Shown here: positions 9,227 to 63,111 of the stretch, one piece after another
Layout of the letters: each line of letters begins with the position of its first letter
How positions within the stretch are numbered: position 1 is the stretch's first letter
NCBI RefSeq assembly: GCF_029626175.1
Contig: NZ_JARUBM010000002.1
Span: 5,597,001-5,661,000, forward strand
Reading direction: 5' to 3'
DNA from: Micromonospora sp. WMMD1082
Lineage (GTDB): Bacteria > Actinomycetota > Actinomycetes > Mycobacteriales > Micromonosporaceae
Length of the DNA stretch: 64,000 bases
Translations under genes and position numbers: made by a program
Notes under the pieces: model-generated
Database searches by the model: none
Seen by the model: the letters and a program-made list of their open reading frames with translations, nothing else
Told to the model about the DNA's origin: nothing

Positions 9227-9289
9227 GATCGCGGGTTCGCGTCCGGCCCTCGGCCGAAAGTCCGGACGCGAACCCCGCGATCGTTTTTT
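9227..9289 (+). terminator. long GATC-tipped hairpin with T-tract
   Basis: Arms 9227-9246 and 9262-9282 pair over 20 bp with one bulged base (GATCGCGGG + TTCGCGTCCGG against its complement), followed by GTTTTTTC. It ends the keto-acid dehydrogenase operon. It belongs by architecture to the GATC-tipped palindromes discussed in the findings and is the only one with a clear T-tract. Confidence 0.85.
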
Positions 9290-9538
9290 CATCCTCTCGG
9301 CGGTTCGTGTGACATGCGGACCGGGTGACCGCCAAGAGGTCGAGATGGGTTCGTGCGCCGTCGCCTGCCGGATTTCGCCCGTCGCGTCGCCAGTCGCTAT
9401 TCCTCGTTCGTCGTGGCGCGATAACGGAGAAATAACCGGGCTCCAATGCTGCCGCTCTTGCTGGAAACTGCGAAAACGACGGCGCCGAGCCAGGGAGAAT
9501 GTGGGCGGAGGAAGCGGCGATAAACGGGGGGACGCATC
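9290..9538. other. gene-free upstream region of the L,D-transpeptidase gene
   Basis: Together with the terminator this is a 329-bp stretch without a gene. It is somewhat AT-richer around 9420-9520. It probably holds the promoter of the downstream lipoprotein gene, but I see no convincing -10/-35 pair or operator. Confidence 0.5.
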
Positions 9539-10798
9539 ATGATGTTGAGGCGGCGACTGACGCTGTTGGCGGTGAGCGTCGCAGCGGCACCGCTGGCGCT
9601 GGGCGCCTGCACCAGCGACCGCAAGTCGGGGCAGCCGGCCGAGGCGCGGGCCAACCCGGAGCTGGCCGTGACGCCGGCCGAGGGCACGCGCGACGTGCCG
9701 ATCAGCGGCGAGATCGGCACCGCCGTCAAGCACGGTCGGGTCACCGATGTACGGATCACCGACGACAAGGGTGCGACCGTGGCGGCGGAGCCGCGCGAGG
9801 ACGGTACGGGTTGGGTGCCGAGCCGGCCGTTGGAGCCGAAGCGGACCTACACCGCGGAGGTCACCGCGACCAGCGACTCCGGAAAAACGGTCACTCGAAG
9901 GACCACCTTCACGACTCAGCCGAAATCGTCTAAACCGGCGATCACCAGCGTCCTGTATTTTGCCGGTGAGCGGACGTACGGGACGGCGATGCCGGTGACC
10001 GTCTCCTTCGACCCACCAATTCCGAAAGAGGCCAGGGCAGATGTGCAACGCCGTCTGTTCGTGAAGACGGATCCGCCGCAGCCGGGCACCTGGTCCTGGG
10101 TGTCCGACGGTAGTCAGGTCTATTACCGGGCGCCCGATTTCTGGCGACCCGACACGACGATCAGCGTCCGCTCGGCGCTGGAGGGCCTACCGATCGGCAA
10201 GGAGAACGTCGGTGACGCCGACCGGCGCGCGACCTCGAAGATCGGCCGCCAGGTCGAGTTGGAGATCGACAACGAGACCAAGCAGATGTCGGTGATCCGG
10301 GACGGCAAGCTGTTGCGCAAGCTGCCGGTCAGCCTCGGCAAGCCGAGCACACCGACCTCCAGCGGCAAGATGGTGATCATGGAGAAACACGAGTTCACCA
10401 CGTTCGACACGCGAGGCTCGGCCGATCCGTACGTCGTCGACGTCGAGGACGCGCAGCGGCTCACCTGGGGCGGCGAGTTCATCCACGGCGCGCCCTGGTC
10501 GGAGGGGGACCAGGGGTACACCAACGTGTCGCACGGCTGCACTAACCTCTCCGCCGCCAACGCGGACTGGCTGATGGGCGTCACCCAGGTCGGCGACCTG
10601 GTGACCGTCAAGGGCACCGAGGTCGAGCTCAACGAAGGCAACGGCTGGACTGCCTGGAACGTCAGCTGGGACCAGTTCGCCAAGGGCAGCGCGCTACCCG
10701 TGCCCGCAGGTCTGCGGCCGACGCCGACCCAGGCGCCGGACCCGGGCGCGGTGGCCGGTGGCTCGCCGGAACCACAGCCGTCCACCAGCGGCGGCTGA
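9539..10798 (+). CDS. L,D-transpeptidase lipoprotein
   Basis: 419-residue cell-envelope enzyme that makes 3-3 peptidoglycan cross-links. It has an N-terminal signal with lipobox LGAC (lipidated Cys about residue 23), two Ig-like domains (about 40-130 and 140-240) as in mycobacterial LdtMt2-type proteins, then a YkuD catalytic domain. The active site is HGAPW...SHGCTNLS, with catalytic Cys in SHGC. The tail is Pro/Gly/Ser-rich. The ATG at 9539 (or the adjacent ATG 9542) follows a G-rich SD. It is transcribed alone, ended by a GC-rich hairpin. Confidence 0.95.
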   Translation: MMLRRRLTLLAVSVAAAPLALGACTSDRKSGQPAEARANPELAVTPAEGTRDVPISGEIGTAVKHGRVTDVRITDDKGATVAAEPREDGTGWVPSRPLEPKRTYTAEVTATSDSGKTVTRRTTFTTQPKSSKPAITSVLYFAGERTYGTAMPVTVSFDPPIPKEARADVQRRLFVKTDPPQPGTWSWVSDGSQVYYRAPDFWRPDTTISVRSALEGLPIGKENVGDADRRATSKIGRQVELEIDNETKQMSVIRDGKLLRKLPVSLGKPSTPTSSGKMVIMEKHEFTTFDTRGSADPYVVDVEDAQRLTWGGEFIHGAPWSEGDQGYTNVSHGCTNLSAANADWLMGVTQVGDLVTVKGTEVELNEGNGWTAWNVSWDQFAKGSALPVPAGLRPTPTQAPDPGAVAGGSPEPQPSTSGG

Positions 10799-10810
10799 CC
10801 GGATCGTACG

Positions 10811-10842
10811 CGCCGGGCCGCCCGTCGTGGGTCGGCCCGGCG
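10811..10842 (+). terminator. GC-rich hairpin without T-tract
   Basis: Perfect 10-bp inverted repeat CGCCGGGCCG / CGGCCCGGCG with a 12-nt loop, 13 bp after the L,D-transpeptidase stop; the usual T-less actinobacterial terminator form. Confidence 0.7.
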
Positions 10843-10904
10843 TGACCCCATGGGCGCTGCGGAGCGGTCCCCGGCCCGGCCGGCCGTGACTCGCGAGCCG
10901 GGCC

Positions 10905-11010
10905 GGCCTCGCGCTTGCCGGGTCGGCCTCGTGCTTACTGGGCCAGGTCGTGCTTGTGTGGCGGGTCGGGTCGTGTTTGCCGGGTTGGGTCGTGTTTGCG
11001 TGCGTGGCGT
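10905..11010. repeat. degenerate ~20-bp tandem repeat
   Basis: Four to five imperfect units around GGGTCGTGTTTGCC (variants GGCCTCGCGCTTGCC, GGCCTCGTGCTTACT, GGTCGTGCTTGTGT). They occupy much of the 367-bp gene-free stretch 10799-11165. No reading frame here looks protein-coding. Confidence 0.6.
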
Positions 11011-11165
11011 TGGATCGCGGCGATCTCGCCCGTGTCCCGCGTCCCGCGTCCCCGGGGGATCGTCCCTAGGGTGGACGCGCCGCGCCTGCGGGTCATGCCC
11101 TGGGCTTACCCGGAACCGCCCTTCGGTGGGGTGGATGTGTCGGTGGCGAGGGATAGGTTCGTTTC

Positions 11166-11516
11166 ATGCGAGAGCGCGAGGAGCGGTTCCACGTCGAGAC
11201 CAGCGTGTCCGACGACGCGGTGTGCGTTCGCGCGGTCGGTGTGATTGACATCGCCACCGTCGGCGCGTTCCGCGCCGCCCTGTGGGCGGCCCCCGCCCGG
11301 CCGGAGCTGCGGGTGGATCTCTCCGGTGTCCGGCTGCTCTCCGCGGCCGGGGTGCGCACGCTGGTGGCGGCCCGGCTGTGGGTGCGGTCCCAGGGCGGCG
11401 ACCTGGTGCTGGTCGACCCGCCGCCCGTGGTGGAGCGGGTGCTTCGGGCCACCGGCCTGCGTCGGGTCATCCCGGTCGTCGGCCCGGCACCCGGGCGGGT
11501 GCTCGCGGCGGCGTGA
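11166..11516 (+). CDS. STAS-domain anti-sigma-factor-antagonist-like protein
   Basis: 116-residue single STAS domain (ERFHVETSVSDDAVCVRAVGVIDI, then LRVDLSGVRLLSAAGVRTLV). Such proteins usually bind an anti-sigma kinase and are switched off by phosphorylation of a Ser in a D-S-S/A-G motif. Here that motif reads L-S-A-A-G, so the normal phospho-acceptor is replaced by alanine and control by phosphorylation is doubtful. ATG 11166 is 6 nt after the -10 box TAGGTT (11154-11159), so it is probably leaderless. No anti-sigma or sigma gene lies beside it. Confidence 0.85.
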   Translation: MREREERFHVETSVSDDAVCVRAVGVIDIATVGAFRAALWAAPARPELRVDLSGVRLLSAAGVRTLVAARLWVRSQGGDLVLVDPPPVVERVLRATGLRRVIPVVGPAPGRVLAAA

Positions 11517-11828
11517 CCCGGCTCCGCGCCGCACAGACGCCAGCACGGGGATGAGGCCGGACGGGACCGACGCCGGCGCCGGGGCGATGCCAGCGCCGGC
11601 CCGACGCCGGAGCCGGGCCCCGATGCCAGCGTCGGGCCGATGCCAGCGTCGGGGCGGACGTCGGGGCGGTGCCGGCACCGGTAGATGACGCGGCGGGCGC
11701 GGGCCGGGTGGCCGCCGCTGGGGGTCCGGTGGGTGGCGCGTCACCGGGCTCGACGTGCCGGTGGCACGGGGGTGGCTGCCGCTGATGCGTCCGGCGCCGG
11801 GCACGGGGGCCGGCGCCGGACGCGGTAA
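11517..11828. repeat. gene-free stretch with ~17-bp degenerate tandem repeats
   Basis: Between 11569 and about 11682, six or seven imperfect copies of a unit like GATGCCAGCGTCGGGCC follow one another. The rest, up to the FKBP stop, is GC-rich without recognisable signals. No gene is supported. Confidence 0.6.
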
Positions 11829-12209
11829 TCAGCGGACGCCGAGCAGGTCGACCACGAAAACCAGGGTCTCGTTGGGCTTGATGACGCCACCGGCTCCCCG
11901 GCTGCCGTAGCCGAGGTGCGGCGGGATGGTCAGCCGGCGCCGGCCCCCGACCCGCATCCCCACCACACCCTGGTCCCAGCCGGCGATGACCCGCCCGCCG
12001 CCGAGCGGGAACTCGAACGCCTCACCCCGGTTCCAGGAGGCGTCGAACTCGGCGCCGGTGGAGTGCGAAACCCCGACGTAGTGGACGCGGGCCACCTGGC
12101 CGGGCTGGGCCTCGGGGCCCTCTCCCACGGTGATGTCCTCGACCACGAGGTCGGCCGGCGGTGCGCCCTCGATCGGACCGATCTCGGGCTTGCTCGCTGC
12201 CTGGTTCAT
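11829..12209 (-). CDS. FKBP-type peptidyl-prolyl cis-trans isomerase
   Basis: 126-residue cytosolic isomerase of prolyl bonds, a single FKBP domain after a 20-residue lead. It has VHYVGVSHSTGAEFDASWNRGEAFEFPLG, GWDQGVVGMRVGGRRRLTIPP, LGYGSRGAGGVIKPNETLVF and the terminal VDLLGV, covering the FK506-binding pocket. There is no signal peptide. It is monocistronic and separated from the DoxX gene downstream by a long palindrome. Confidence 0.96.
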   Translation of the reverse strand: MNQAASKPEIGPIEGAPPADLVVEDITVGEGPEAQPGQVARVHYVGVSHSTGAEFDASWNRGEAFEFPLGGGRVIAGWDQGVVGMRVGGRRRLTIPPHLGYGSRGAGGVIKPNETLVFVVDLLGVR

Positions 12210-12332
12210 GCGGATTCTCCTGGGACGTCGGGCTCGGTCGGCACAATCCTGCCGGACTTTACGGCAGCCAGGATCACGGCATGCCCGTGACCTCGGAGGC
12301 AGCCCCCAGACCGAGGCAGGCCGCCCCCCAAC

Positions 12333-12407
12333 CGCCGATCTTGCACTTATGGTCGCCGTAAAAGCCGCAAAGGGCTCGTAACGGCGACCATAAGTGCAAG
12401 ATCGGCG
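12333..12407. repeat. GATC-tipped palindrome, copy A
   Basis: Perfect 27-bp arms (12333-12359 and 12381-12407) around a 21-nt loop, starting CGCCGATC and containing the core TGCACTTATGGTCGCCGT. It lies between two minus-strand genes (upstream of FKBP, downstream of DoxX). The same core recurs in copy B at 55541. It may act as terminator for DoxX; there is no T-tract. Confidence 0.9.
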
Positions 12408-12482
12408 CGGTGGGGGTGGGGGTGGGGGTGGGCGGCGGGCGTCACCTGGGGTGACGCCCGCCGCGTGGGGGAGGTGATCAGG

Positions 12483-13043
12483 TCAGCGGAGCCAGCCGAA
12501 CCGCTGGACGATCGGCAGCCGCGCCCAGGTGCGGCCCAGGCCCAGGGTGTCACCGGCGTTGGTCACCGCGAGCAGGGCCAGCACACCGGCGTAGACGAGG
12601 TGGTCGTCCATGAAGGGGTTGTTCGCCGGAGGCAGGACGGCCGTCCACATCAGCACCAGCAGCAGGCCACCCGCCGCGGCGGCGATGCGCACCCCGACGC
12701 CGAGCAGCAGTGCCGCACCGATGGCCGCCAACCCGATCATGAACAGCCAGTCTGCCCAGGCGGCTCCGGCGATGCCGTTGTAGAAGCCCTGGAACGGGCC
12801 GGCGGCACCGAAGGTGAGGAAGCCCTCGGTCGGGCTGCCCCCGTTGATCCAGGCGTTCTTCGTCTCGGTGGCGAACCCCAGGCCGAACATCTTGTCCAGG
12901 AAGGCCCAGAGGAAGACCCAGCCCAGCGCCAGGCGGAGCCCGGCGAGCAGGTAACGGGTGGCCCGCTTCCGGGTGGTCTGCTCCCGGACGGTCTCGGCCC
13001 CCGGGGTCTTGATGGCGGTGTTCCGCTCGATCATCGCGGTCAT
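12483..13043 (-). CDS. DoxX-family membrane protein
   Basis: 186-residue protein with four hydrophobic segments (about 42-62, 95-118, 118-140, 150-170) in the DoxX/MauE arrangement: LALGWVFLWAFLDKMFGLGF, the WINGGSPTEGFL loop, and ADWLFMIGLAAIGAALLLG. DoxX-like proteins are linked to redox balance at the membrane, but the reaction is not known. ATG 13043 (MTAMIERNTAIKTPG) is preferred; the longer frame to 13259 has no family sequence or SD. It is monocistronic. Confidence 0.88.
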   Translation of the reverse strand: MTAMIERNTAIKTPGAETVREQTTRKRATRYLLAGLRLALGWVFLWAFLDKMFGLGFATETKNAWINGGSPTEGFLTFGAAGPFQGFYNGIAGAAWADWLFMIGLAAIGAALLLGVGVRIAAAAGGLLLVLMWTAVLPPANNPFMDDHLVYAGVLALLAVTNAGDTLGLGRTWARLPIVQRFGWLR

Positions 13044-13278
13044 CGTGTCCACGTCCCTTCTCTGCTTCGCACCGCATCTCCCGGTGGCACTTCTATTGGA
13101 CGCCGTGGGAGAGCCGGCGGTCAGGGCCGACCGGGCCGTAACCGGGCGGGACCTTCGACCCGTGTCCGCCGGGACCTCCCCGAACCCGGTCCGCCGGGGC
13201 CTGCCGGGCACGTTGGCCGGATCCTTCCGGGCTGCGGTCGGCACTCGGTGGCCGGCCACTACGGGCCCACGCGGGCGG

Positions 13279-14004
13279 TCAGCCGGCGACGAGCGGGTCG
13301 GCGAGTTGGGCGGTCAGGACCGCGGTCGCCTCGGCCAGCGACGGGCCGTACCAGGTCAGGTGCCGTCCGGACACCAGGGCGCAGGGGATGCCCGGGAACG
13401 CCTCCGGTCCGTCGTCACGGGTGAACCGGTACGGCTCGTCCGGCAACACGACCAGGTCGGGTGATTGTGCCCGCAGCTGATCGAGGCTCGGCCGCGGGTA
13501 CCGTTCCGGCTGCTCGGCGTAGCGGTTGGCGACGCCGAGCCGGCGCAGCACGTCGCCGGCGAAGGTGTCGGCGCCGAGTACCACCCAGGGGCGCCGCCAG
13601 ACCGGCACCACGGCGCGCCGGGCGACCGGCGTCCCGGGGAGCGCGGCCCAGGCGTGCCGGGCCGCGGTCAGCCAGTCGGGTTCCGCCGGTGCGCCGAGGT
13701 CGCGGAGCAGGTCGGCCAGTTCGGTCAGCGCACCGTCCACGGTGCGCGGATAGGTCAGCCGGACCGGTACGCCCGCGGCGGCCAGGGCGGCGGCATCCTC
13801 GCGCCGGTTCTCCTCGATGTTGAGCAGGACCAGGTCGGGGCGGAGCGCACGGACCCGGTCCAGATCCGGATACTTGGTGCCGCCCACCCGGGGCACGTCC
13901 AGGTCGGCCGGGTGGGTGCACCAGTCGGTGGCCCCGACCAGCAGCCCGGGCAGGGTCAACGCCACCGCCTCGGTCAGCGACGGCACCAGCGACACCACCC
14001 GCAC
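13279..14004 (-). CDS. BtuF-like helical-backbone metal/cobalamin-binding protein (no signal peptide)
   Basis: 241 residues with the fold of class III ABC-transporter binding proteins: MRVVSLVPSLTEAVALT, VGGTKYPDLDRVRALRPDLVLL, and LRAQSPDLVVLPDEPYRF. It lacks a signal peptide and lipobox, and no permease or ATPase gene is nearby, so a classical uptake role is unlikely. It may be a cytosolic corrinoid or chelate binder. The start GTG is preceded by GGGGAGGTGA. The function is only inferred from the fold. Confidence 0.8.
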   Translation of the reverse strand: MRVVSLVPSLTEAVALTLPGLLVGATDWCTHPADLDVPRVGGTKYPDLDRVRALRPDLVLLNIEENRREDAAALAAAGVPVRLTYPRTVDGALTELADLLRDLGAPAEPDWLTAARHAWAALPGTPVARRAVVPVWRRPWVVLGADTFAGDVLRRLGVANRYAEQPERYPRPSLDQLRAQSPDLVVLPDEPYRFTRDDGPEAFPGIPCALVSGRHLTWYGPSLAEATAVLTAQLADPLVAG

Positions 14005-14210
14005 CTGGTCACCTCCCCGGCCGGGCCGGCCCGCTGGGCCCGCCGCCGACGCGCCGACGCCCGACCGGTGGAGCCGGCCGGCATGATCGTCATCCTAGAC
14101 TCGATCGGTCGGCGGCAGGATTGCATCCTTACCCACCTGAACCGCGCGGCGTCCGCACATGACGACCATGCGATCCGCCGGACGGCACGGTCGGTTGAAG
14201 GGATCACTGG

Positions 14211-15080
14211 GTGGATACGACGATGACCGGTGACGACCGCTGGCTGGCGACGGTGCCGAGCGGCGCCGGGCGCGGCCCCGTGCTGCTCCGGTCGGGGCAG
14301 CGGATGCACGCCGGCCTGCGCCTGGGCGAGGTGGTCCGGCGCCGGCCACCGGGTCTCACCGCGAGCCAGTGGAACACGGCCGCCCGCACCCTGTTCGACC
14401 AGGTGGTCTGCGCCGAGGACACGGGACGCCCGCAGTTCGCCGTCGAGTTCCGTCCACCGTCGTCCGACGCCACCGCCCGGCGGGCCGAGCGGACCACGGA
14501 GGCGGTCGCCGCCGCCGTCGGTCTGCCCCTGCTGCGGATCGCCTCCGCCACCCTGCGCGCCGCCGAGCACGGGCCGCGGGTCATCGGGTACGTGATCGAC
14601 GCCCGCCGGTACGCCGAGGGTGCCAGCGGTCCGGAGGCGGCCGCCGTCGGCTTCCGGGACATCGTCGGCCGGCTGCCCGACGGGCGGGACGGCGCGGTCA
14701 ACGATCTCGGCGCGCTGGCCCGGACCGAGGCGATCGAGGCGTACGTGGCGCGCCGGCTGGCGGATCCGATCCTGCGCGGGCTGCACGTGCGGTGGGCTCA
14801 GGGACCGGTCGAGGGGTGGAGCTGGGTCGAGGTGCGTCCGGGGAGCTTCCTGATGGAGCGGGTGACGCTGCGGCCGTACCGCCTTTCCTGTGGGGTCGAC
14901 CCGGCCCGGCTCGCCGAGGACCTGGCCGTTCTCGCCGTCGGCGAGCGGCTGCGGACGGGGGAGGCCGACGTGTCGTCGCTGATGTCCCGTGCGGATCTGC
15001 GCGCCGACATCCGGCGACTACAGGGTCGCCGGGACGAACTCGTGGACGGCTTCGCGTACGACCATCTCTGCGAGGCGTGA
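14211..15080 (+). CDS. DUF2726-like nuclease-fold protein of unknown function
   Basis: 289-residue soluble protein. Residues about 60-110 (FDQVVCAEDTGRPQFAVEF, then AAAVGLPLLRI) resemble the DUF2726 / restriction-endonuclease-like core, in which a D-x(n)-E-x-K motif cuts DNA. Here the D and E positions are recognisable but the lysine region reads RPPSSDATAR, so activity is uncertain. Start GTG 14211 has GAAGGGA upstream; ATG 14223 is an alternative. It stands alone. I recognise no specific role. Confidence 0.6.
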   Translation: MDTTMTGDDRWLATVPSGAGRGPVLLRSGQRMHAGLRLGEVVRRRPPGLTASQWNTAARTLFDQVVCAEDTGRPQFAVEFRPPSSDATARRAERTTEAVAAAVGLPLLRIASATLRAAEHGPRVIGYVIDARRYAEGASGPEAAAVGFRDIVGRLPDGRDGAVNDLGALARTEAIEAYVARRLADPILRGLHVRWAQGPVEGWSWVEVRPGSFLMERVTLRPYRLSCGVDPARLAEDLAVLAVGERLRTGEADVSSLMSRADLRADIRRLQGRRDELVDGFAYDHLCEA

Positions 15081-15380
15081 CCGTCCGCTGAGCGGCCGGC
15101 TGGCCAGGAGCGGACGGTAGCGGGCCGCGCGCGGAAAGAAACATCGGAAAAAAGTCGGCACCCTTTGAACCGCCGTCGTGGCGCGCCCGTACCTCACCGG
15201 GAATGGACAGGATCTCCCCAACCCGCACCGGCAGGCGCGGGAGACGGTGCGGAAAGGGCATCGTCGTTCGTCGACGTGCCACCGGCACGCTCGGACGGTC
15301 CCCGTCGAGCGGGCCACCACGATTCCGTTCGGTCCGTCGAGTCACGAATCAGGTACCGGATCGAGAAGGAGAGCAATTCG
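15081..15380. other. 300-bp gene-free upstream region
   Basis: Between the DUF2726-like gene and the secreted protein. It contains an A-rich patch near 15135-15155 and ends in the SD GAAGGAGAG (15365-15373). A promoter for the secreted protein must lie here, but no consensus pair stands out. Confidence 0.4.
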
Positions 15381-16625: not shown

Positions 16626-16661
16626 CGCCGAAGGCCGAGGCCGTGAGCTGAGGCCAGGCAC

Positions 16662-17163: not shown

Positions 17164-17195
17164 CGTCGAATACTCCCTGTGTCGGGCGGGGTGTG

Positions 17196-17417: not shown

Positions 17418-17439
17418 TCAATGCGATTGCAGGTGTTCG

Positions 17440-55453: not shown

Positions 55454-55540
55454 GCCTTTCTCCGGCCCCCGACCCCTGGTCCCAGGGTCGGGGGCCACCC
55501 CGTCGGTCTAGCGGTACGGGCACCCCCGCTCCCGCTCCCG

Positions 55541-55609
55541 CGATCATGCACTTATGGTCGCCGTAAAGCGGGCATCCCTCGCATAAGGGCGACCACAAGT
55601 GCATGATCG
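55541..55609. repeat. GATC-tipped palindrome, copy B
   Basis: 22-bp arms (55541-55562, 55588-55609) with one mismatch, starting CGATCATGCACTTATGGTCG; the core TGCACTTATGGTCGCCGTAAA is shared with copy A at 12333. It lies between the convergent 96-residue gene and the DUF397 gene. Confidence 0.88.
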
Positions 55610-55679
55610 GCGCAGCGGGGTGGGGCGAGGGTGGCGTGAGAGGGGTGGGGTGAGGGGTGGGCGCTCTCGCGCGTCTGGG

Positions 55680-56210: not shown

Positions 56211-56425
56211 GACACCCGCCCCCGGTCGCTGCGGCCATCCCCCTGCCGCGCCCGGGGACGGGTCACCTGCGGCCGGGCGGGCGGCCCTGTTGGCGACGGG
56301 AGGGTGGTCCCCGCGACAGGGGGCGTACAGTCCGGCAGGCCATCGGCCGCCCTATACTTGCCGAGCGGCAAGCATCCGGATCTGACGTCGCGGACCCGGC
56401 GGGCACCGGCCGGCCGGGCATGGGC

Positions 56426-56431
56426 TAGATT
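56426..56431 (+). promoter_or_regulatory. -10 box of the response-regulator gene
   Basis: TAGATT, about 53 nt upstream of ATG 56485. The gene-free 56211-56484 otherwise shows no distinct signal. Confidence 0.4.
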
Positions 56432-56484
56432 TCCGCCAGCGCGGGACCGTGGGTTCCGTCCTGGCCGAGCTGAGGCAGGTAATG

Positions 56485-56931
56485 ATGGGCGCACGCACCC
56501 TCACTCCGGTTCGCATCCTTGTCGTGGACGACGACCCGGGCGACGTGCTCATGATCGAGGAAGCCCTGTCGACCTCGGACGTCGAGAAGGTCATCGACGT
56601 GGTCGGCGACGGCCAGGAGGCGATGGAGTTCCTGCGCCGTGAGGGCCGGCACGGCGACGCCCAGCGCCCGGACGTGATCCTGCTCGACCTGAACATGCCC
56701 CGGATGGACGGGCGGCAGGTGCTGGGCGAGGTGAAGAGCGACGAGGACCTGCGGACCATCCCGATCGTCGTGTTGACCACGTCGAACGCGGACACCGACA
56801 TCATCAGCAGCTACACGCTTCAGGCCAACGCGTACGTCACCAAGCCGATCGACCTGGACGACTTCAACGACGTGGTCCACCGCATCGACGAGTTTTTCGG
56901 TCGCGTGGTCGTGCTGCCCAAGCGGGCCTGA
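56485..56931 (+). CDS. single-domain (CheY/Rcp-like) response regulator
   Basis: 148 residues, a receiver domain only. VRILVVDDDPGDVLMIEEAL holds the acidic pocket; the phospho-acceptor Asp is in VILLDLNMPRMDG; Thr and Lys switch residues are in VLTTSNADTD and YVTKPIDLDDF. The VVDDDPGDVLMIEEAL form is typical of Rcp1-like regulators paired with phytochrome or other hybrid kinases. No kinase is adjacent. ATG 56485 is favoured by GAGGCAGG five nt upstream; ATG 56482 is possible. Confidence 0.92.
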   Translation: MGARTLTPVRILVVDDDPGDVLMIEEALSTSDVEKVIDVVGDGQEAMEFLRREGRHGDAQRPDVILLDLNMPRMDGRQVLGEVKSDEDLRTIPIVVLTTSNADTDIISSYTLQANAYVTKPIDLDDFNDVVHRIDEFFGRVVVLPKRA

Positions 56932-56976
56932 CCCGCCCGGCCGACCCCGCCCCGGGGTCCACCACCGCGTCGCGGG

Positions 56977-57837
56977 TCAGGTCAGCGCGGCCACGATGGT
57001 GGCGGCCCGCTCCTCGTGCTGGGCGTAGGCGTACGGGTAGGCGGAGATCTGCACGGCCTGGGCGGCCAGGGTCAGGCTCATCTGCCGCCAGCCGGGCACT
57101 TCGAGCAGCGCCTCGTAGAAGGCGCGGGACGCGTACGCGGGACGCATCAGGTCGCGTACGGTGCCCCAGCCGCTGCTGGGGCGCTGCTGGAACAGCCCGA
57201 CCGAGTCGTGGTCCCAGCCGATGGCCTGGTGGGGGTAGTTCTGCGACTCGGGCAGCACGCCGCTGGCGTAGTTGAGCAGGGTGCTCTCCTGCATCGCGGT
57301 GGCGACGGCGATCACCAGACCCTGGCGGGGGATCTCCATGTCGACGCCGACGTCCACGATCACCTTGGCGTTGTCCATCTGGGCCTGGGTCAGGCCGGCC
57401 ACCGGCTTGGGGCGCGGCGGCTTGGTGGGGGTCTTCTTCGGCTTGGGGCTGGCCGACGCCTTGGCGGTCGGCGATGCGGTCGGTGAAGCGGTCGGGCTGG
57501 GGCTGGCCGGGGTGGGGGAGGGGCTGCGGTCGAGGGAGCGGGACGCGATCTCGTCCTGGGCGGCGAGGGCGCGGTCGGCCACCGCCTCGGTCGGCAGCGA
57601 CGGTGGTGGCTCGTCGTCGTCCCTGGTCGCCACGACGGCCGCGGCGCCGAGGCAGCAGGCCACGCCGGTGGCCAGGGCCACCCGTAGGGGAGTGGAGGTC
57701 AGCAGGGCGCGGACGCTGCGCGGGGCCACCGCTGCGCGGTGCCGGCCTGTCAGCCTTTCGGATGATGTGGCGTCGGCCGAAGGGATCGCCGGTTGCTGGG
57801 GGGTCAGCTGCTGGTCGGTCTGGTCGTCGGGATGCAC
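56977..57837 (-). CDS. membrane-anchored lysozyme-like protein
   Basis: 286 residues. Cytosolic N terminus (about 1-48), TM helix (LRVALATGVACCLGAAAVV), a Ser/Pro/Thr/Ala repeat linker (SPTASPTASPTAKASASPKP) and Lys/Pro stretch, then a C-terminal domain (about 150-286): VIAVATAMQESTLLNYASG, VGLFQQRPSSGWGT, AAQAVQISAYPYAYAQHE. The Glu in AMQES followed by DSVGLFQQRP is the layout of a lysozyme/transglycosylase-like fold used in actinobacterial wall hydrolases. GTG start is 6 nt after TAGCCT, leaderless. Confidence 0.82.
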   Translation of the reverse strand: MHPDDQTDQQLTPQQPAIPSADATSSERLTGRHRAAVAPRSVRALLTSTPLRVALATGVACCLGAAAVVATRDDDEPPPSLPTEAVADRALAAQDEIASRSLDRSPSPTPASPSPTASPTASPTAKASASPKPKKTPTKPPRPKPVAGLTQAQMDNAKVIVDVGVDMEIPRQGLVIAVATAMQESTLLNYASGVLPESQNYPHQAIGWDHDSVGLFQQRPSSGWGTVRDLMRPAYASRAFYEALLEVPGWRQMSLTLAAQAVQISAYPYAYAQHEERAATIVAALT

Positions 57838-57843
57838 CCGCCG

Positions 57844-57849
57844 AGGCTA
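57844..57849 (-). promoter_or_regulatory. -10 box, leaderless lysozyme-like gene
   Basis: TAGCCT on the minus strand, 6 nt before the GTG start codon. Confidence 0.5.
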
Positions 57850-58142
57850 GAAAGACAGCGGCCGCATGCCACCGGGTCGGTTGGTGGCATGCGTCACAAT
57901 TCGCGGCTATTCATCTGGTGATTCTCCGCGAGTCATTCTTTAACGGACGGAAATCCCCTATCCGTAATTCCGTAAATGTCGTAAACGGGCGGGCAAAGCC
58001 GTACGAAACGGTGATCTTGTGGGGCTCGATGTGTCGCGGCGCGCGCCTCCCCCGAACGGGCGACCCCGGGTCCGCCCGACCGCGTCGCCCGTTGGGGCGG
58101 TCGGGCCATCCCGGCGCCGGCAGCGCCGCCCGGCCCGGCGGC
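57850..58142. other. gene-free, AT-richer intergenic region
   Basis: About 300 bp between the lysozyme-like gene start and the OsmC gene stop. The part 57890-58015 is clearly less GC-rich than its surroundings (for example TTCTTTAACGGACGGAAATC). I see no gene, T-tract or clear dyad; an unannotated small RNA or Lsr2-bound segment is possible. Confidence 0.4.
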
Positions 58143-58565
58143 TCAGTGCCGGCCGTTCTCGGCCGGGGTGACGGTGAGCCGGTGCCGGCTACCGCCCCCG
58201 CTGGAGAAGGGCCACAGCTGGTCGGCGTGCTCGACCAGTTCGGCGAGCTGCTGCCGGGTCAGGCCCACCGAGGAGATCGAGGCGTGCACGTCGGCCCGGT
58301 AGCGGCCGTCGTCGTCGCGGCCGAGCTTCGCCTCCGCGCGTACCTGCACGGTGTGCGCCTCGTCGGTGATCCCACCGGCCGCCTCGACCGCCGCGTGGTG
58401 CAGGCAGGACGCGAAGGCGGCGGCGAGCAGCTGCGACGGGGTGAGCCCGGTGCAGTGCGGCGCCAACGGCGAGGCGAGGGCGGATGACAGCGCCTCGTCG
58501 TCGGTGTGGATGTGACCGCCCTCGGCGGTCGCGGCGGCAACCTCGTTCAACCAGGAACTCGGCAT
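58143..58565 (-). CDS. OsmC/Ohr-family peroxiredoxin-like protein
   Basis: 140 residues with the two family cysteines: APHCTGLTPSQLLAAAFASC brings both into one segment (peroxidatic Cys in PHC, resolving Cys in ASC). The fold reduces organic hydroperoxides with a dithiol. The N terminus SWLNEVAAATAEGGHI is usual for the Ohr/OsmC group. No OhrR repressor is adjacent. Confidence 0.88.
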   Translation of the reverse strand: MPSSWLNEVAAATAEGGHIHTDDEALSSALASPLAPHCTGLTPSQLLAAAFASCLHHAAVEAAGGITDEAHTVQVRAEAKLGRDDDGRYRADVHASISSVGLTRQQLAELVEHADQLWPFSSGGGSRHRLTVTPAENGRH

Positions 58566-58623
58566 CGCGTTCCTCCCGTCACTCCCCGCCCGGCTACCCG
58601 CGCCCGATCGGGTGAAACCGGGA

Positions 58624-59571
58624 TCAGCCGCCCTGCCGGCTCCACTGGACGCCGCGCGCCGCCTCGGTGACCTCGGCCGCCGCCCGGTCCGTCCACGGGC
58701 TCACCGCCGCCGGCCGCTGCCGTGGCATGAGCGGCTCGTGCATCGGCACGTACACCCGGGCGTCCACCGCCTCGCCGAGCAGCAGCGCGGCCACCAGGCT
58801 GCTCGGCCGTCGCGCCGGATCCTCGGCGAGGCAGCGGCGGCACAGGTCGGCCACCTCGGCGGGCAGCCCGGGCAGTTCAGGCAGCGGCTGCGGAGGCTGG
58901 CGTCCCTGCGCGTCGAGCAGCTGGGTGACGCTGTCCGCCAGGTACGGCAGGCGCCCGGCCAGGCAGCGGTAGAGCAGCACCCCGAGGGCGTAGATGTCGG
59001 CCGCCGGGGTTGCCGGAGCCCGGTGCAGTTGCTCCGGCGCCAGGTACGCGGGCGTACCGACCAGCAGGCCGTCCGGTGCGGTGTCGATGGCGCCGGCCGG
59101 CGTGGCGATGCCGAAGTCGAGCACCTTCACCCCGGCCGGGGTGAGCATCACGTTGGCCGGCTTGATGTCGCGGTGCACGATCCCGTGCGCGTGTGCGGCG
59201 GCCAGCGCCGCGCCCACCTCCGCGCAGACGCGCACCGCGATGCGCCAGTCCAGCGGCCCGGCGCGCAGGTGGGTGGCGAGCGTCCGCCCCTCGGCCAGCT
59301 CCATCACGATGTACGGCAGCGCGCGCCCCGGCGCCGTGTCGCAGGTGCCGAAGTCGTGGACGCTGGCGACGTTGGGATGGACGAGACGGGCCGCGGAACG
59401 GGCCTCGGCGCGGATGCGCTCCACCGACGCCACGCCGTCCGGCTGGCCGGGCGATACCAGCTTCACCGCGACCGGTCGGTCCAGCACCGCGTCGTGCGCT
59501 CGCCAGACCTCCGACATCCCGCCGATGCCGATCCGCTGTTCGAGCCGGTACCTCCCGTCCAGCGTACGCAT
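58624..59571 (-). CDS. soluble Ser/Thr protein kinase
   Basis: 315 residues, kinase domain 1-265 with IGIGGMSEVWRAHD, VAVKLVSPG, catalytic HRDIKPANVML, VLDFGIATP and APEQL. Unlike the kinase at 29404 it has no transmembrane helix or sensor tail; the last 45 residues are short and unstructured. Divergent from a 74-residue gene. Targets unknown. Confidence 0.92.
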   Translation of the reverse strand: MRTLDGRYRLEQRIGIGGMSEVWRAHDAVLDRPVAVKLVSPGQPDGVASVERIRAEARSAARLVHPNVASVHDFGTCDTAPGRALPYIVMELAEGRTLATHLRAGPLDWRIAVRVCAEVGAALAAAHAHGIVHRDIKPANVMLTPAGVKVLDFGIATPAGAIDTAPDGLLVGTPAYLAPEQLHRAPATPAADIYALGVLLYRCLAGRLPYLADSVTQLLDAQGRQPPQPLPELPGLPAEVADLCRRCLAEDPARRPSSLVAALLLGEAVDARVYVPMHEPLMPRQRPAAVSPWTDRAAAEVTEAARGVQWSRQGG

Positions 59572-59736
59572 CGACCGCTCCCTACCCTCGTGGTGCTCAC
59601 CCCGGCCCGCGTGCCCGTGGCGTCGGCACGGTACCCCGCCTCCGATCAGGGCAAACCGGCCTCCGACGGCGGCCGGTGCGTTACCGTGCGAGCCGGGACG
59701 CCCGACCTGCCGGGCGGGCTGGAGGCGGAGCGGGTG

Positions 59737-59961
59737 ATGAGTGAGGTGACCGTACGTTTCGTCGGTGGACCGGCCGACGACCTGGTCCGGTCGTTACCGG
59801 CCGGCCCGGACGGCGCTCCGCCGCGACTGTGGGTGCTGCGCCGGCCGCAGGCGGCGGCCACGCCCGCCGCGGACCATCTCTACGCCCGGCAACGGCCCGA
59901 CGCGACCGGGGTCTGGTCCATGCGCTTCGTCCGTACCGACCCGGTCGGTGTGACCGAGTGA
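59737..59961 (+). CDS. small protein of unknown function
   Basis: 74 residues: MSEVTVRFVGGPADDLVRSL, LWVLRRPQAAATPAADHLYA, then WSMRFVRTDPVGVTE. Coding-type codon bias and a GGAG-containing lead support it. Family not recognised; soluble. It lies between the divergent kinase and the two-component genes. Confidence 0.65.
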   Translation: MSEVTVRFVGGPADDLVRSLPAGPDGAPPRLWVLRRPQAAATPAADHLYARQRPDATGVWSMRFVRTDPVGVTE

Positions 59962-60055
59962 TGTCCGGCCCGGCCGGGAGCGGGACCGCCGCCCAGCTGG
60001 CGCACAGGATCCGCACAGACGGGACACAGTGCGCCGCACCACCCTGGCAACCGTG

Positions 60056-60799
60056 ATGAGCGAGGGAGCGGTCGGATCGGGCCGCGTGGAGCTGCGCCGA
60101 CCCGACGGCGAGCCGGTCCGGGTCCTGGTCGTCGACGACGAGCCGACCCTGACCGACCTGCTGTCGATGGCGCTGCGGTACGAGGGCTGGCAGGTGCGCA
60201 CGGCGGGCGACGGGACGGCCGCGGTACGCGCCGCCCGGCAGTTCCAGCCCGATGCGGTGGTGCTCGACGTGATGCTGCCCGACCTGGACGGCTTCCAGGT
60301 GCTGCGCAAGCTGCGGGCGGACAATGCCGCCGTGCCGGTGCTCTTCCTGACCGCCCGGGACGCGGTGGAGGAGCGCGTCGCCGGGCTGACCGTGGGCGGC
60401 GACGACTACGTCACCAAGCCGTTCAGCCTGGAGGAGGTCATCGCGCGGCTGCGGGCGCTGCTGCGCCGCTCCGGCTTCGCCGTCGCCACCCGCCCGGACG
60501 CGGTGCTGACCGTCGGCGACCTGAGCATGGACGAGGACAGCCACGAGGTGCGCCGGGCCGGGCAGCTGATCACCCTCACCGCCACCGAGTTCGAGCTGCT
60601 GCGGTATCTGATGCGCAATCCCCGCCGGGTGCTGAGCAAGGCACAGATCCTCGACCGGGTGTGGAACTACGACTTCGGCGGCCAGGCCAACGTGGTCGAG
60701 CTGTACATCTCGTACCTGCGGAAGAAGATCGACGCCGGTCGCCCGCCGATGATCCACACGCTGCGCGGGGCCGGGTACCTGCTCAAGCCGGCGGAGTGA
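60056..60799 (+). CDS. OmpR-family response regulator
   Basis: 247 residues. Receiver domain 20-140 (VRVLVVDDEPTLTDLL, phospho-Asp in VVLDVMLPDLDG, KPF switch) and winged-helix DNA-binding domain 150-247 (TATEFELLRYLMRNPRRVLS, HTLRGAGYLL). Start: ATG 60056 is chosen; in-frame GTGs at 60029 and 60053 exist. The stop overlaps the kinase start by 4 bp, so the pair is co-translated. Confidence 0.94.
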   Translation: MSEGAVGSGRVELRRPDGEPVRVLVVDDEPTLTDLLSMALRYEGWQVRTAGDGTAAVRAARQFQPDAVVLDVMLPDLDGFQVLRKLRADNAAVPVLFLTARDAVEERVAGLTVGGDDYVTKPFSLEEVIARLRALLRRSGFAVATRPDAVLTVGDLSMDEDSHEVRRAGQLITLTATEFELLRYLMRNPRRVLSKAQILDRVWNYDFGGQANVVELYISYLRKKIDAGRPPMIHTLRGAGYLLKPAE

Positions 60800-62253
60800 G
60801 CGCGGTGCGCCGGTGGCTGGCGGGCTGGTCGCTGCGGACCCGGCTGGTGGTCATCCTGGTCGCCCTGCTCGCCGTGGTCAGCCTGGCCGTCGGCGCGATC
60901 ACCACGGCCGCGCTGCGGCAGTTCCTGATCTCCCGGGTGGACCAGCAGCTGCTCTTCAGCCCAGGCGGCCGGCCGAGCGCCCCGTGGGAGCCGGGGCCGG
61001 GCAACGGGCCGTGGGGCGACGTCCGGGTGCCGCGCGGCTTCCCGGCCGGCACGATCAGCGCGCAGATCGTCGACGGCCGGGTCACCGAGGCGTGGACGCT
61101 GGTCGCCCGCCAGGAACAGGCGGTACCGCTCGACGAGGTCGCCGCGCTGGTCGAGGTGCCCGTCGACGGCCGCCCGCACAGCCTCGGCCTCGGCGACCGG
61201 GGCAGCTACCGGCTGGTGGCCCGGCAGTCCGCCGCCGGGACCGTGCGGGTGCTGGGCGTGCCGCTGTCCGGGGTGCAGGAGACCGTCTGGTGGCTGGTGG
61301 CCGCGCAGGCCGGGGTGACCGCCGCCGGGTTGCTGGTGGCCGGCGGTGCCGGTGCGCTGATCGTCCGGGCCACCCTGCGCCCGTTGCGCCGCGTCGCGGC
61401 CACCGCCGCCCGGGTCAGCGAACTGCCCCTGGACCGGGGCGAGGTGGCGCTCTCCGAGCGGGTGCCGGCCGCCGACACCGATCCGCGTACCGAGGTCGGC
61501 CAGGTCGGCTCGGCGCTCAACCGGATGCTCGGGCACGTCGCCGCCGCGCTCGCCGCCCGGCAGGCCAGCGAGACGCGGGTACGCCAGTTCGTCGCCGACG
61601 CCAGCCACGAACTGCGTACGCCGCTGGCCGCGATCCGCGGCTACGCCGAGGTGGCGCGCCGCGGCCGGGACCGCGTCCCGCCCGACGTGGCGCACGCGCT
61701 GCGCCGGGTCGAGTCGGAGAGCACCCGGATGACCAGTCTCGTCGACGACCTGCTGCTGCTGGCCCGGCTGGACGCCGGCCGCCCCCTCGCGGTCGAGCCG
61801 GTCGACCTGAGCGCGCTGGTGGTGGACGCGGTCAGCGACGCGCACGTGGCCGGCCCGGAACACCGCTGGCGGCTGGACCTGCCCGAGGCGGTGATCCGCG
61901 TCCCCGGCGACCCCGCCCGGCTGCACCAGGTGCTGGCGAACCTGCTGGCCAACGCGCGGGTGCACACCCCGTCCGGCAGCACCGTCACCACCCGCCTGCG
62001 GCTGGCCGACGGCGCCGTCGAGCTGAGCGTCACCGACGACGGCCCCGGCGTGCCGCCCGAGCTGCGCCCCGAGGTCTTCGAACGGTTCGCCCGGGGCGAC
62101 AGCTCCCGTTCCCGGGCGCACGGCAGCACCGGACTCGGCCTGGCCATCGTCGCCGCCGTGGTGGAGGCGCACCACGGCACCGTCTCGCTCGACACCCGCC
62201 CCGGCCGTACCGTGTTCACCGTCCGGCTGCCGGATCCCACCCACCCGGTTTGA
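60796..62253 (+). CDS. sensor histidine kinase
   Basis: 485 residues. TM1 about 14-36, extracytoplasmic sensor about 37-160 with no recognised domain, TM2 about 168-192, HAMP, HisKA with the phospho-acceptor in ADASHELRTPLAAIRGYAEV, and an HATPase with N box LANLLANARVHTP, DDGPGVP and GSTGLGLAIV. GTG start overlaps the regulator stop (GTGA). Its TGA stop lies inside the left arm of the GATC-tipped palindrome at 62250. Confidence 0.95.
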   Translation: MSAVRRWLAGWSLRTRLVVILVALLAVVSLAVGAITTAALRQFLISRVDQQLLFSPGGRPSAPWEPGPGNGPWGDVRVPRGFPAGTISAQIVDGRVTEAWTLVARQEQAVPLDEVAALVEVPVDGRPHSLGLGDRGSYRLVARQSAAGTVRVLGVPLSGVQETVWWLVAAQAGVTAAGLLVAGGAGALIVRATLRPLRRVAATAARVSELPLDRGEVALSERVPAADTDPRTEVGQVGSALNRMLGHVAAALAARQASETRVRQFVADASHELRTPLAAIRGYAEVARRGRDRVPPDVAHALRRVESESTRMTSLVDDLLLLARLDAGRPLAVEPVDLSALVVDAVSDAHVAGPEHRWRLDLPEAVIRVPGDPARLHQVLANLLANARVHTPSGSTVTTRLRLADGAVELSVTDDGPGVPPELRPEVFERFARGDSSRSRAHGSTGLGLAIVAAVVEAHHGTVSLDTRPGRTVFTVRLPDPTHPV

Positions 62254-62308
62254 TCATGAGGTTAGCGGCGACTCTGATCTCCAAAACTGCCGCTAACCTC
62301 ATGATCAA
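62250..62308. repeat. GATC-tipped palindrome, copy C
   Basis: Perfect 20-bp arms TTGATCATGAGGTTAGCGGC and its complement (62250-62269, 62289-62308), 19-nt loop. The left arm contains the histidine-kinase stop codon TGA (62251-62253). Confidence 0.92.
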
Positions 62309-62357
62309 CGGCAGTGAGGGGTGGGTGAGAGGGAGGGTGGGTGGGGTGGGGGTGTGG

Positions 62358-63056
62358 GTGTATCGGGAACGACCGGCCGGGGTTGCGGGTGCGACGGTGT
62401 GGACCAGCACCGCGCCGGACCGTCCCGCGCCCACCCGGGTGCTTCCCGACGGCTGTCTCGACCTGCTCTGGTCCAGCCGGGCCGGGCTGCTGGTCGCCGG
62501 GCCGGACCGCACCGCGTTCCTGTCCACCAGCGCGCCGGGGGAGCGGTGGGTCGGGCTCCGGCTGCCGCCCGGGGTCGGCCCGGCGGTGCTCGGCGTTCCC
62601 GCGGTGGAACTGCGCGACCAGCGCGTACCCCTGGGGGCGTTGTGGGGCGACCGGGCCGTCGCGGCGCTCGCCGACCGGGCCGGGTCGGACGCCGAGGCCG
62701 TGCTGGTCGAGGTGGTGGCGGGCCGGCTGCGGGACGCCGGCGGCCCGGATCCGCTCGGTGCCCGGGTGGCCGCCGCGCTGGCCGCCGGCGCCACGGTGGG
62801 CGCGACCGCCGCCGAGGTCGGCCTCGACCCGCGCGCGCTGCTGCGGCGCAGCCGGCACCTGTTCGGGTACGGCCCGAAGACCCTCGCCCGGATCCTGCGG
62901 CTGCGCCGGGCGCTCGCCCTGGCCCGCAGCGGCGTGCCGCTGGCCGAGGTGGCCGCCCGTACCGGCTACGCCGACCAGGCCCACCTCACCCGCGACACGA
63001 GAGCCCTCACCGGCCTACCCCCCACCCCCCTCCTCCCACCTCCCTCACCCCCTTGA
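62358..63056 (+). CDS. AraC-type regulator with N-terminal ligand domain
   Basis: 232 residues. N-terminal domain (YRERPAGVAGATVWTSTAP, RVLPDGCLDLLW) of the type filed as DUF6597; C-terminal AraC helix-turn-helix pair: GATAAEVGLDPRALLRRSRH, FGYGPKTLARILRLRRAL, AEVAARTGYADQAHLTRD. GTG 62358 is favoured; GTG 62352 is 6 nt upstream. The GC-rich lead between palindrome C and the start holds a G-run that could serve as ribosome site. The stop lies inside palindrome D. Confidence 0.88.
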   Translation: MYRERPAGVAGATVWTSTAPDRPAPTRVLPDGCLDLLWSSRAGLLVAGPDRTAFLSTSAPGERWVGLRLPPGVGPAVLGVPAVELRDQRVPLGALWGDRAVAALADRAGSDAEAVLVEVVAGRLRDAGGPDPLGARVAAALAAGATVGATAAEVGLDPRALLRRSRHLFGYGPKTLARILRLRRALALARSGVPLAEVAARTGYADQAHLTRDTRALTGLPPTPLLPPPSPP

Positions 63057-63111
63057 TCATGAAGTTGTTGTCGTCCCGGCCGGCGTGTCGGGGCAACAAC
63101 TTCATGATCAA
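63053..63111. repeat. GATC-tipped palindrome, copy D
   Basis: Perfect 18-bp outer arms TTGATCATGAAGTTGTTG and complement (63053-63070, 63094-63111) plus an inner CCCG/CGGG pairing. It supplies the stop codon of the AraC gene (63054-63056) and, on the other strand, of the VOC gene (63108-63110). Confidence 0.92.

Follow-up and report, generated by a model that had tools for sequence, protein, structure and literature searches.

REPs are among the closest systems described. According to the parts of Di Nocera et al. (2013; PMC3733652) that deal with them, the GTAG and CGTC superfamilies are 20–40 bp long, bear an unpaired tag on one of their ends, lie between convergent and tandem genes near 3' ends, where their tips may give stop codons, and also occur inside genes, repair genes included. 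In the same parts, two Xanthomonas species differ in the REP that they carry near one position in recB, and the CGTC REPs are without a dedicated transposase. The words Actinobacteria, Micromonospora, Frankia, and GATC are absent from the main text of that paper, and Streptomyces and Frankia from the portions used here of a survey of stem-loop families (PMC2267715). The family analyzed here, starting from 64,000 nucleotides of Micromonospora sp. WMMD1082 (the window), resembles both superfamilies, as portrayed in those parts, in its short dispersed palindromes near 3' ends, its stop-codon tips, its intragenic copies, including those in repair genes, and its differing occupants at one site in different species, and it resembles the CGTC REPs in that no dedicated transposase was found. 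It differs from them in that its units are mostly 47–70 nt in near-fixed length classes with paired, GATC-bearing tips at both ends, and also in its loop modules, C-rich/G-rich flanks, and actinobacterial host. Rickettsia palindromic elements (RPE; covered in part in PMC3733652) likewise lie inside genes, but these are Rickettsia sequences. No earlier description of the family was found among the titles and abstract openings of the literature searched. Conserved end boxes, a variable paired core, and a position at gene 3' ends also recall integron attC sites, although the family lacks RYYYAAC/GTTRRRY boxes in the attC arrangement and lies outside cassette arrays.

In a scan of the window for inverted repeats with arms of at most one mismatch and loops of 3–40 nt, the first four ranks were taken by the elements at 12333, 62250, 55541, and 63053, in that order; when poorer arms were tolerated, further, weaker repeats fell between them. 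GATC-to-GATC repeats (16-bp arms, at most one mismatch) numbered four in the window and zero in 200 dinucleotide-preserving shuffles. A previous reading, made without database searches (the sequence-only reading), had listed five inverted repeats, and all five are present. It was also correct that the 12333 and 55541 elements share TGCACTTATGGTCGCCGT (the stem CACTTATGGTCGCCGT is common to them) and that there is a single T-tract; among the five sites, a U tract after a GC-rich stem was found only at 9227. Its statement that all lie at gene 3' ends was nearly right. In the uncurated annotation of a codon-usage gene caller, the 62250 and 63053 elements overlap stop codons and the 55541 element lies approximately 70 nt past a DUF397 gene; the 12333 element, between two minus-strand genes, follows an ORF without a Pfam match by 79 nt and is upstream of an FKBP gene. 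An Rfam search of the window returned no element above the gathering score. The sole Rfam match in the window was a ZMP/ZTP riboswitch, located elsewhere.

The repeat at 9227, which begins 18 nt after the stop codon of an E2 acyltransferase gene (7665–9209), had been counted as the fifth member but has to be removed, given its tip, bulge, and T-tract (see the table) and the lack of a second copy of its pattern in 1.66 Mb of the WMMD1082 genome. It is a lone T-tailed terminator, whereas the other four sites belong to a dispersed family. For these four, the proposal of a lineage-limited, REP-like dispersed element whose tips are conserved while its cores vary was borne out.

Table. Coordinates of the hairpins and associated features in the window
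Feature	Positions	Strand	Details
67-nt GATCTTG-class element with 3 nt on each side	12334..12406		GATC to GATC 12337-12403; perfect 27-bp arms
67-nt element with GATCATG tips and 3 nt on each side	55539..55611		GATC to GATC 55542-55608; 1 mismatch in 22-bp arm
55-nt GATCATG element with 3 nt on each side	62249..62309		GATC to GATC 62252-62306; stem AGGTTAGCGGC; GATCTCC in loop
55-nt GATCATG element with 3 nt on each side	63052..63112		GATC to GATC 63055-63109; stem AAGTTGTTG; GGCGTGTC in loop
TGA stop of histidine-kinase gene 60796-62253, made by element tip	62251..62253	+	Gene call; HATPase_c, HisKA
TGA stop of gene 62397-63056 (HTH_18), made by left tip	63054..63056	+	Gene call
TGA stop of gene 63108-63536 (Glyoxalase), made by right tip	63108..63110	-	Gene call
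G-rich 3' flank, family-typical	62310..62380	+	Sequence; family averages
Ordinary-looking intrinsic terminator, non-member	9227..9290	+	GATCGCG ends; 1-nt bulge; T6 tract

Each unit of the family forms a hairpin, and its length is nearly constant: 55 nt in most copies, with further classes at 47–49 and 66–70 nt. Both tips follow the consensus GATC[AT][AT]GNN[GC]TT, the core is variable, and the two arms change together. Measured from GTY to RAC, the most frequent unit is 61 bp long, with both ends reading GTYGATC[AT][AT]GNN[GC]TT; this tip conservation is inflated because the copies were partly gathered by exact tip patterns. The comparison with shuffled or control sequence that the sequence-only reading had called for gave 82 copies in the WMMD1082 genome versus 0 for the control pattern, and 113 versus 0 with wider tips, a density of approximately 15 copies per Mb. 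The family was present in all 23 Micromonospora genomes sampled and was sporadic in other Actinobacteria among the matches listed; the genomes G091 and G047 hold 171 and 159 copies, respectively. Elements resemble their genome mates: of 68 elements from four genomes, 56 had their nearest neighbor in their own genome (mean 26 and maximum 38 after shuffling). Of 131 unique 55-nt elements, 57 had the loop motif GACACGCCG (at most two mismatches) and 45 had GGAGATC (at most one mismatch), in each case at a fixed position. These motifs and the nearly invariant tips, themselves partly a product of the search patterns, would suit sites for a DNA-binding protein, such as a nucleoid or boundary factor, that recognizes the GTYGATC tips together with the loop motif when they are spaced at a fixed distance. 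We consider such sites quite unlikely because the arms vary freely yet stay complementary (0.89 versus 0.64 for permuted arms), which a duplex reader would not need, and because the 3'-end placement and the near-identical dispersed copies would be left unexplained.

An origin as ordinary MITEs or REPs, belonging to a resident transposase of a known family, would predict an insertion sequence with GTYGATCWWGNNSTT at its ends. Dispersed palindromes at 3' ends and in genes, clusters holding elements of different types, and a tip that provides a stop codon, as in GTAG REPs, are consistent with this origin, but it is unlikely from the searches for a mover. The Y1 transposase domain PF01797 was absent from 11 of 15 genomes (the WMMD1082 genome and 14 others), including the copy-rich G091 and G047 as well as G189 and G193, and the only match in the WMMD1082 genome, as read from its sequence, has a TnpB-like ORF as its neighbor, the arrangement seen in IS605. 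GTAG REPs are recognized by an unpaired GTAG or its complement at one end and by a cognate RAYT in the genome; here, both ends are paired GATC[AT][AT]G with GTY outside, and PF01797 was confined to four of the 15 genomes. The CGTC tag and 20–40-bp length of the CGTC REPs also differ from the tips and lengths found here, and there is no target duplication (see below). The 113 copies qualify as REP-like only in the broad sense of the term, which covers short palindromes that are dispersed in tens or hundreds of copies and lie mostly downstream of genes. Reverse transcriptase was detected in three of 12 genomes, G091 among them, and was absent from the other nine, including that of WMMD1082. The 412 proteins encoded near elements formed homology clusters of at most five members, and one sequence from each of the 15 largest clusters included no transposase look-alike. 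No mobilizing enzyme is identified by the Y1, reverse transcriptase, and neighbor-protein searches. Viral copies were also considered: a loose pattern matched 26 viral stretches, but in the 24 listed only 10–12 of 16 tip-side positions paired, at 31–65% GC, and these matches were dismissed as chance. A BLAST search with positions 63040–63125 gave no match in phage or plasmid collections.

The boundary of the unit is sharp. Among near-identical pairs from the same genome (n = 223; 196 from the WMMD1082 genome), flank agreement at positions -1, -2, and -3 was 0.83, 0.75, and 0.94, versus backgrounds of 0.39, 0.41, and 0.68, whereas at -4 it equaled the background (0.46 versus 0.46). Near-identical copies match for 3 nt outside GATC and then nothing further. 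Because of these 3 shared nucleotides, and because free GTYGATCRAC sites were not enriched (24 versus 33.6 expected), we discarded the idea that GATC is a target duplication of 4 bp, which had been suggested by the in-frame copies, whose lengths minus 4 (55 - 4 = 51 and 70 - 4 = 66) are whole codons. Direct repeats of 1–9 nt beside GATC, or of 1–8 nt past the 3-nt boundary, were at about the shuffled level, the largest departure being at 3 nt (9 versus 5.2).

Arms hardly ever occur alone. In 1.66 Mb, the main arm word GATCATGA[AG]GTT was found 75 times within elements and 0 times elsewhere; a longer degenerate word, GTYGATCWWGVVSTT, was found 69 times within and five times outside; and a short degenerate word, GATCWWGVVSTT, 96 times within and 25 times outside, versus 6.3 expected. 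Tip pairs matched in 340 cases, versus four mixed-tip candidates, which favors a change of type at both ends together. Uptake sequences of Neisseria and Pasteurellaceae form inverted pairs at gene ends and species dialects, and are abundant as single copies. The family shares the first two features: the GATCAAG type, for instance, numbers 0 in the WMMD1082 genome and 38 in the relative G205. A genome-maintenance gene is also among its hosts. An uptake-like drive, in which DNA exchange favors the arm word and spreads it like the DUS dialects of Neisseria, is nevertheless highly improbable, considering the scarcity of free arms, the long variable core, and a copy density far below that of DUS.

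The elements are concentrated at gene 3' ends. In an unbiased 1.26 Mb, 11 elements occurred in 112 convergent, 11 in 436 tandem, and three in 150 divergent intergenic regions, and enrichment at 3' ends, which the sequence-only reading had asked to be checked, was evident from the densities of 0.32, 0.087, and 0.054 elements per kb of intergenic DNA, respectively. Of 113 tandem copies, 96 were closer to the 3' end of the upstream gene. Tips sometimes provide a TGA stop, and rare in-frame copies lie inside genes, in protein linkers. On both strands, the flanks are C-rich before the hairpin and G-rich after it: C was 0.49–0.58 and G 0.21–0.22 at 10–60 nt outside the tips, fading by approximately 100 nt, and this skew was absent at the midpoints of 56 element-free convergent regions. 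The mean 3' flank had G at 0.44–0.56 and T at 0.11–0.16, with no U tract. Flank G-quadruplexes (0.41 versus 0.32 in base-shuffled flanks) were weakly elevated, and flank–flank pairing modestly exceeded that of permuted pairs (8.59 versus 7.82, sd 0.15). The 3'-end placement and the C-rich flanks would be expected of functional bidirectional terminators or 3'-end stabilizers, in which an RNA hairpin is selected at gene ends and families arise via hairpin duplication. A C-rich stretch before the hairpin on both strands is what Rho loading would want, hairpins without a U tract are under discussion for mycobacteria, and the folds of the members are very stable (z-scores: 12333, -14.3; 55541, -9.8; 62250, -9.7; 63053, -8.1; for comparison, 9227, -6.3).

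Compensation on the transcribed strand gave a less uniform picture. In the first tandem set, from which nine non-Actinobacteria loci were dropped and in which a few chance matches remain among L176–L211, G.U pairs outnumbered A.C mismatches by 35 to 11, but in two further sets the counts were 14:13 and 7:5 (pooled over the three sets, 56:29, p = 0.0045), and the in-frame Ada-AlkA copies showed the reverse trend, with 8 G.U to 21 A.C. The excess in the first and pooled sets leaves room for RNA-level selection; the processing target or terminator class of the sequence-only reading was not demonstrated, the G.U comparison being in its favor in the first set and without trend in the other two. Furthermore, loop modules are read in either orientation (GACACGCCG was forward in eight and reverse in nine tandem contexts, random relative to the upstream gene), copies occur in frame within genes, and hairpin selection alone leaves the exact lengths, the shared tips, and the near lack of free arms unexplained. 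Terminator function of family members is possible, and selected terminators as the explanation of the whole family are conceivable, although we lean against them.

Comparisons between relatives showed what happens at individual slots. In the best 30 of 160 genomes, 22 of the 30 species had an occupant in the slot of the Ada-AlkA linker, and their tree required at least 16 changes of state. One clade of 17 species was filled throughout but carried four labels, two of which were the same loop motif in opposite orientation, and the contents differed even between sister species. We also followed 13 of 39 eligible WMMD1082 elements; slot 0 among them could be mapped neither in G205 nor in G327. In G205, nine of 12 mapped slots were filled or degenerate, seven of the nine with GATCAAG tips, and in three of the nine (slots 3, 10, and 12) the loop was, by eye, similar to that of the WMMD1082 element; in G327, three of 11 mapped slots were filled. 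Degenerate occupants were called by eye (slots 6 and 11 in G205 and 10 in G327). The Ada-AlkA slot and most of the 12 G205 slots demonstrate that a resident hairpin is replaced by another subtype while the slot stays filled. The slots are not universal, some keep their type, and over longer distances they are also empty. For example, the 62250 slot was filled in four of 20 relatives with a mapped kinase gene end, in L077 and L084 with hairpins of the window's arm and loop kind (the L084 loop being reversed) and in L082 and L090 with GATCAAG hairpins; the 63053 slot was filled in two of 20 relatives. A clean empty site with exact ends was not found, apart from a look-alike in L318 (GTTGATCAGG), the slot flanks being hypervariable. 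The co-variation of arms between strains, another check that had been proposed, held in that the arms are complementary, but between species one hairpin type often takes the place of another in a slot that is retained, rather than the arms simply co-varying in place. Selection for a hairpin at these places could account equally well for the persistence of slots and the bias towards 3' ends.

The family is probably a new, double-tagged, REP-like superfamily: chromosomal, non-coding, and spreading at the DNA level, with copies overwriting copies. Complete hairpins are copied around the chromosome as DNA, as is indirectly shown by near-identical copies that share nothing past the tips, main arm words that hardly ever stand alone, and the expansion of genome-specific subtypes. 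As observed, they settle or survive at gene 3' ends and occasionally in frame in protein linkers. At many occupied slots, the resident has given way to another subtype. This replacement is presumably guided by the tip sequence common to all copies, through ectopic template switching, through gene conversion from one copy to another, or through a putative enzyme that recognizes a folded strand by its tips. Copying of the whole hairpin, or of one arm twice by fold-back synthesis, would keep the arms matched even if RNA pairing were not selected, and loops of either orientation in one slot would follow if entry can occur at either end. A dedicated recombination system that recognizes folded hairpins by their two GTYGATC tips and swaps them as wholes among fixed slots, so that slots are rewritten towards the current subtype of the species, would amount to cassette exchange without TnpA, reverse transcriptase, or target duplication; we regard it as speculative and rather doubtful. 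For the superfamily that we favor, effects on transcript 3'-end formation are probable side effects and not the reason for its spread.

Such a mode of spread would be a warning not to take hairpins of this kind for conserved terminators, nor to treat co-variation among copies as evidence of a function in RNA. For the question of how REP-like palindromes can multiply in the absence of a transposase, which the CGTC REPs pose as well, the GATC-tipped family offers an unusually clean case: its units are nearly constant in length, their two tips match, free arms are few, and one slot lies in the coding sequence of a widespread Ada-AlkA gene.

The five inverted repeats that the sequence-only reading had described in the window were all present as described, and four of them (12333, 55541, 62250, and 63053) ranked 1–4 in a scan of the window for near-perfect short-loop repeats. 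In the comparison with shuffled sequence proposed in that reading, the GATC-to-GATC form occurred four times in the window and never in 200 dinucleotide shuffles. The repeat at 9227, previously included in the family, instead has GATCGCG tips, a bulge, and a T6 tract; no second copy of its kind was found in the 1.66 Mb of the same genome searched, and it was treated as an ordinary terminator.

Coordinates of the repeats and of other features observed in the window and at other loci (L-numbers)
Sequence	Position	Strand	Feature
Window	2862-2951	minus	ZMP/ZTP riboswitch, 52.3 bits, exceeding its own gathering score
Window	9227		Inverted repeat outside the family
Window	12333		GATC-tipped element
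Window	12432-12464		Perfect GC-rich hairpin, 15-bp arms, near element 12333
Window	55464-55496		Perfect GC-rich hairpin, 12-bp arms, near element 55541
Window	55541		GATC-tipped element
Window	62250		GATC-tipped element
Window	63053		GATC-tipped element
L060	15176-15243		Chimera with one GATCTTG end and one GATCATG end
L260	9229-9511		Cluster of 3-4 elements of different tip types, single intergenic region
L263	9487-9717		Cluster, as for L260
L273	9735-10135		Cluster, as for L260

Across the whole genome of WMMD1082, the pattern GATCATGNNNTT...AANNNCATGATC had 82 copies versus none for the reversed control, and 113 copies carried GATCWWG tips. In an order-level sample of 200 genomes that included this one, the pattern was found in 42, namely every one of the 23 from the genus, 1 of the 6 from elsewhere in the family, and 18 of the remaining 171. 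A scan of named sequences gave at least 116 matches. Most of the 80 listed were from Micromonospora, and the others included Catellatospora, Hamadaea, Geodermatophilus, and a few further Actinobacteria; the scattered single matches outside those Actinobacteria, among the matches listed, look like chance. Copies with the wider tips numbered 1 to 171 per genome in 15 related genomes.

Lengths in a set of 237 unique elements peaked at exactly 55 nt, a class in which 133 have GATCATG tips, and the others were mainly 47–49, 54, 56, and 66–70 nt. The left arm consists of GATC[AT][AT]G, followed by two variable bases, usually [GC]TT, and then a variable stem; outside GATC, both sides favor G (86%), T (69%), and C/T (95%). 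In 152 unique 55-nt elements, arm complementarity at positions 8–18 was 0.89, compared with 0.64 for permuted right arms, and most of these positions showed several pair types. Loop modules sit at fixed positions (chiefly GACACGCCG in 57 of 131 and GGAGATC in 45 of 131), and the same modules occur with different arms. In 55-nt elements at many loci, the common motif GACACGCCG includes GACAC, the Streptomyces WhiA binding-site core, which we regard as a lead only.

Near-identical copies within a genome (pairs mostly from WMMD1082) matched at three flanking bases and none further out, indicating that the copied unit spans GTY to RAC. The arm word GATCATGA[AG]GTT occurred 75 times within elements and never outside them, and GTYGATCWWGVVSTT occurred 69 times within and 5 times outside (two in one mixed-tip element, one resembling a lone remnant arm, and two that appear to be chance matches). 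The short word GATCWWGVVSTT was found 96 times within elements and 25 times outside, against 6.3 expected. Free arms are thus rare; half elements occur as remnants (e.g., L323, slot 10 of the related genome G327), and no target duplications were found beside elements. Complete hairpins are dispersed as sharp-ended units. Only four mixed-tip candidates, one doubtful, were found versus 340 elements with matching tips, so type switching mostly involves both ends together; the L060 chimera may be an intermediate of such switching.

In an unbiased 1.26 Mb, none of 25 members lay within called genes, and intergenic density was highest between convergent genes (0.32 per kb), against 0.087 for tandem and 0.054 for divergent regions. 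Across all sets (283 deduplicated elements), 114 were convergent, 113 tandem, 19 divergent, 14 overlapped a called gene, and 23 were at locus edges; 96 of the 113 tandem elements were closer to the 3' end of the upstream gene. Of 341 facing gene ends, 31 (three within the window) use the TGA in the tip as their stop codon. On each strand, the flanks are C-rich ahead of the hairpin and G-rich behind it (C 0.49–0.58 and G 0.21–0.22 at 10–60 nt outside the tips), a skew that fades toward about 100 nt and is unlike the midpoints of 56 convergent regions without elements. Mixed-type clusters contain up to four elements per intergenic region (L260, L273), spaced roughly 75–165 nt start to start, and those at L273, L260, and L263 can be likened to the BIMEs formed by REPs.

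In-frame copies within genes occur at five loci encoding an Ada-AlkA repair protein (Ada_Zn_binding, HTH_18, and AlkA_N domains), where they lie in the linker, and one further copy (L291) lies in frame in a gene whose sequence resembles that of an acyltransferase. The Ada-AlkA protein had a match in all 160 genomes of the genus, in nine only weaker than 1e-100. Among the 30 best of the 160, the slot held an intact 54–55-nt element in 22, a degenerate one in 3, and none recognized by the finder in 5, one of which (L322) looks degenerate by eye. On a tree built without the linker, no fewer than 16 changes were required by the six slot states, with empty and degenerate counted; the smallest possible number was 5, shuffled states averaged 19.6, and 3 of 200 shuffles came as low. 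A well-supported 17-member clade had the slot filled throughout, yet with four labels, and sisters, for example L305 and L313, differed in content. Together, these observations point to some inheritance combined with rapid switching.

Intergenic slots behave similarly among close relatives. In the related genome G205, 12 of 13 queried slots were mapped, with seven intact and two degenerate elements; seven of these nine had GATCAAG tips, a type with 38 copies in G205 and none in WMMD1082, and in three (slots 3, 10, and 12) the loop looks similar to that of WMMD1082. In G327, 3 of 11 mapped slots were filled and one held a remnant, and in more distant relatives slots were often empty. The 62250 slot was filled in 4 of 20 relatives with a mapped kinase gene end, by the window loop type (L077), the same type reversed (L084), or GATCAAG elements (L082, L090); in L086, L094, and L095, the kinase is absent and an element lies just upstream of the next gene. 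The 63053 slot, between HTH_18 and Glyoxalase gene ends, was filled in 2 of 20 (L067, from G205, and L086), both with GATCAAG tips. Many slots outlast their contents. In some slots without a GATC element (L068, L072, L377), a hairpin of another dispersed type was present, resembling AAGGAAGGGCCCCTT...AACGCCT...GGGGGCCCCCTT.

For 56 of 68 elements, the nearest neighbor lay in their own genome (shuffled maximum, 38), showing that subtypes amplify within genomes. Such spread probably involves an ectopic step of copying or exchange guided by the tips. Speaking against selection at the RNA level alone, an excess of G.U pairs in the first set (35:11) did not recur in the second (14:13) or third (7:5), even though the pooled ratio was 56:29 (p=0.0045), and loop orientation was random with respect to the upstream gene. 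A terminator or 3'-end role is possible and compatible with copying. Enzyme searches covered Y1 transposases, absent from 11 of 15 genomes searched, and reverse transcriptases, absent from 9 of 12.

The family works like REPs, which, according to Di Nocera et al. (PMC3733652), sit at gene 3' ends, supply stop codons from their tags, and occur inside repair genes; a recB site occupied at nearly the same position in two species carries a different REP in each, and the CGTC REPs are without a transposase. Compared by tags, length, and transposase, the family falls outside both the GTAG and CGTC superfamilies, and we regard it as a new REP-like superfamily. Its most unusual property is the degree to which content is switched at slots that are themselves kept.
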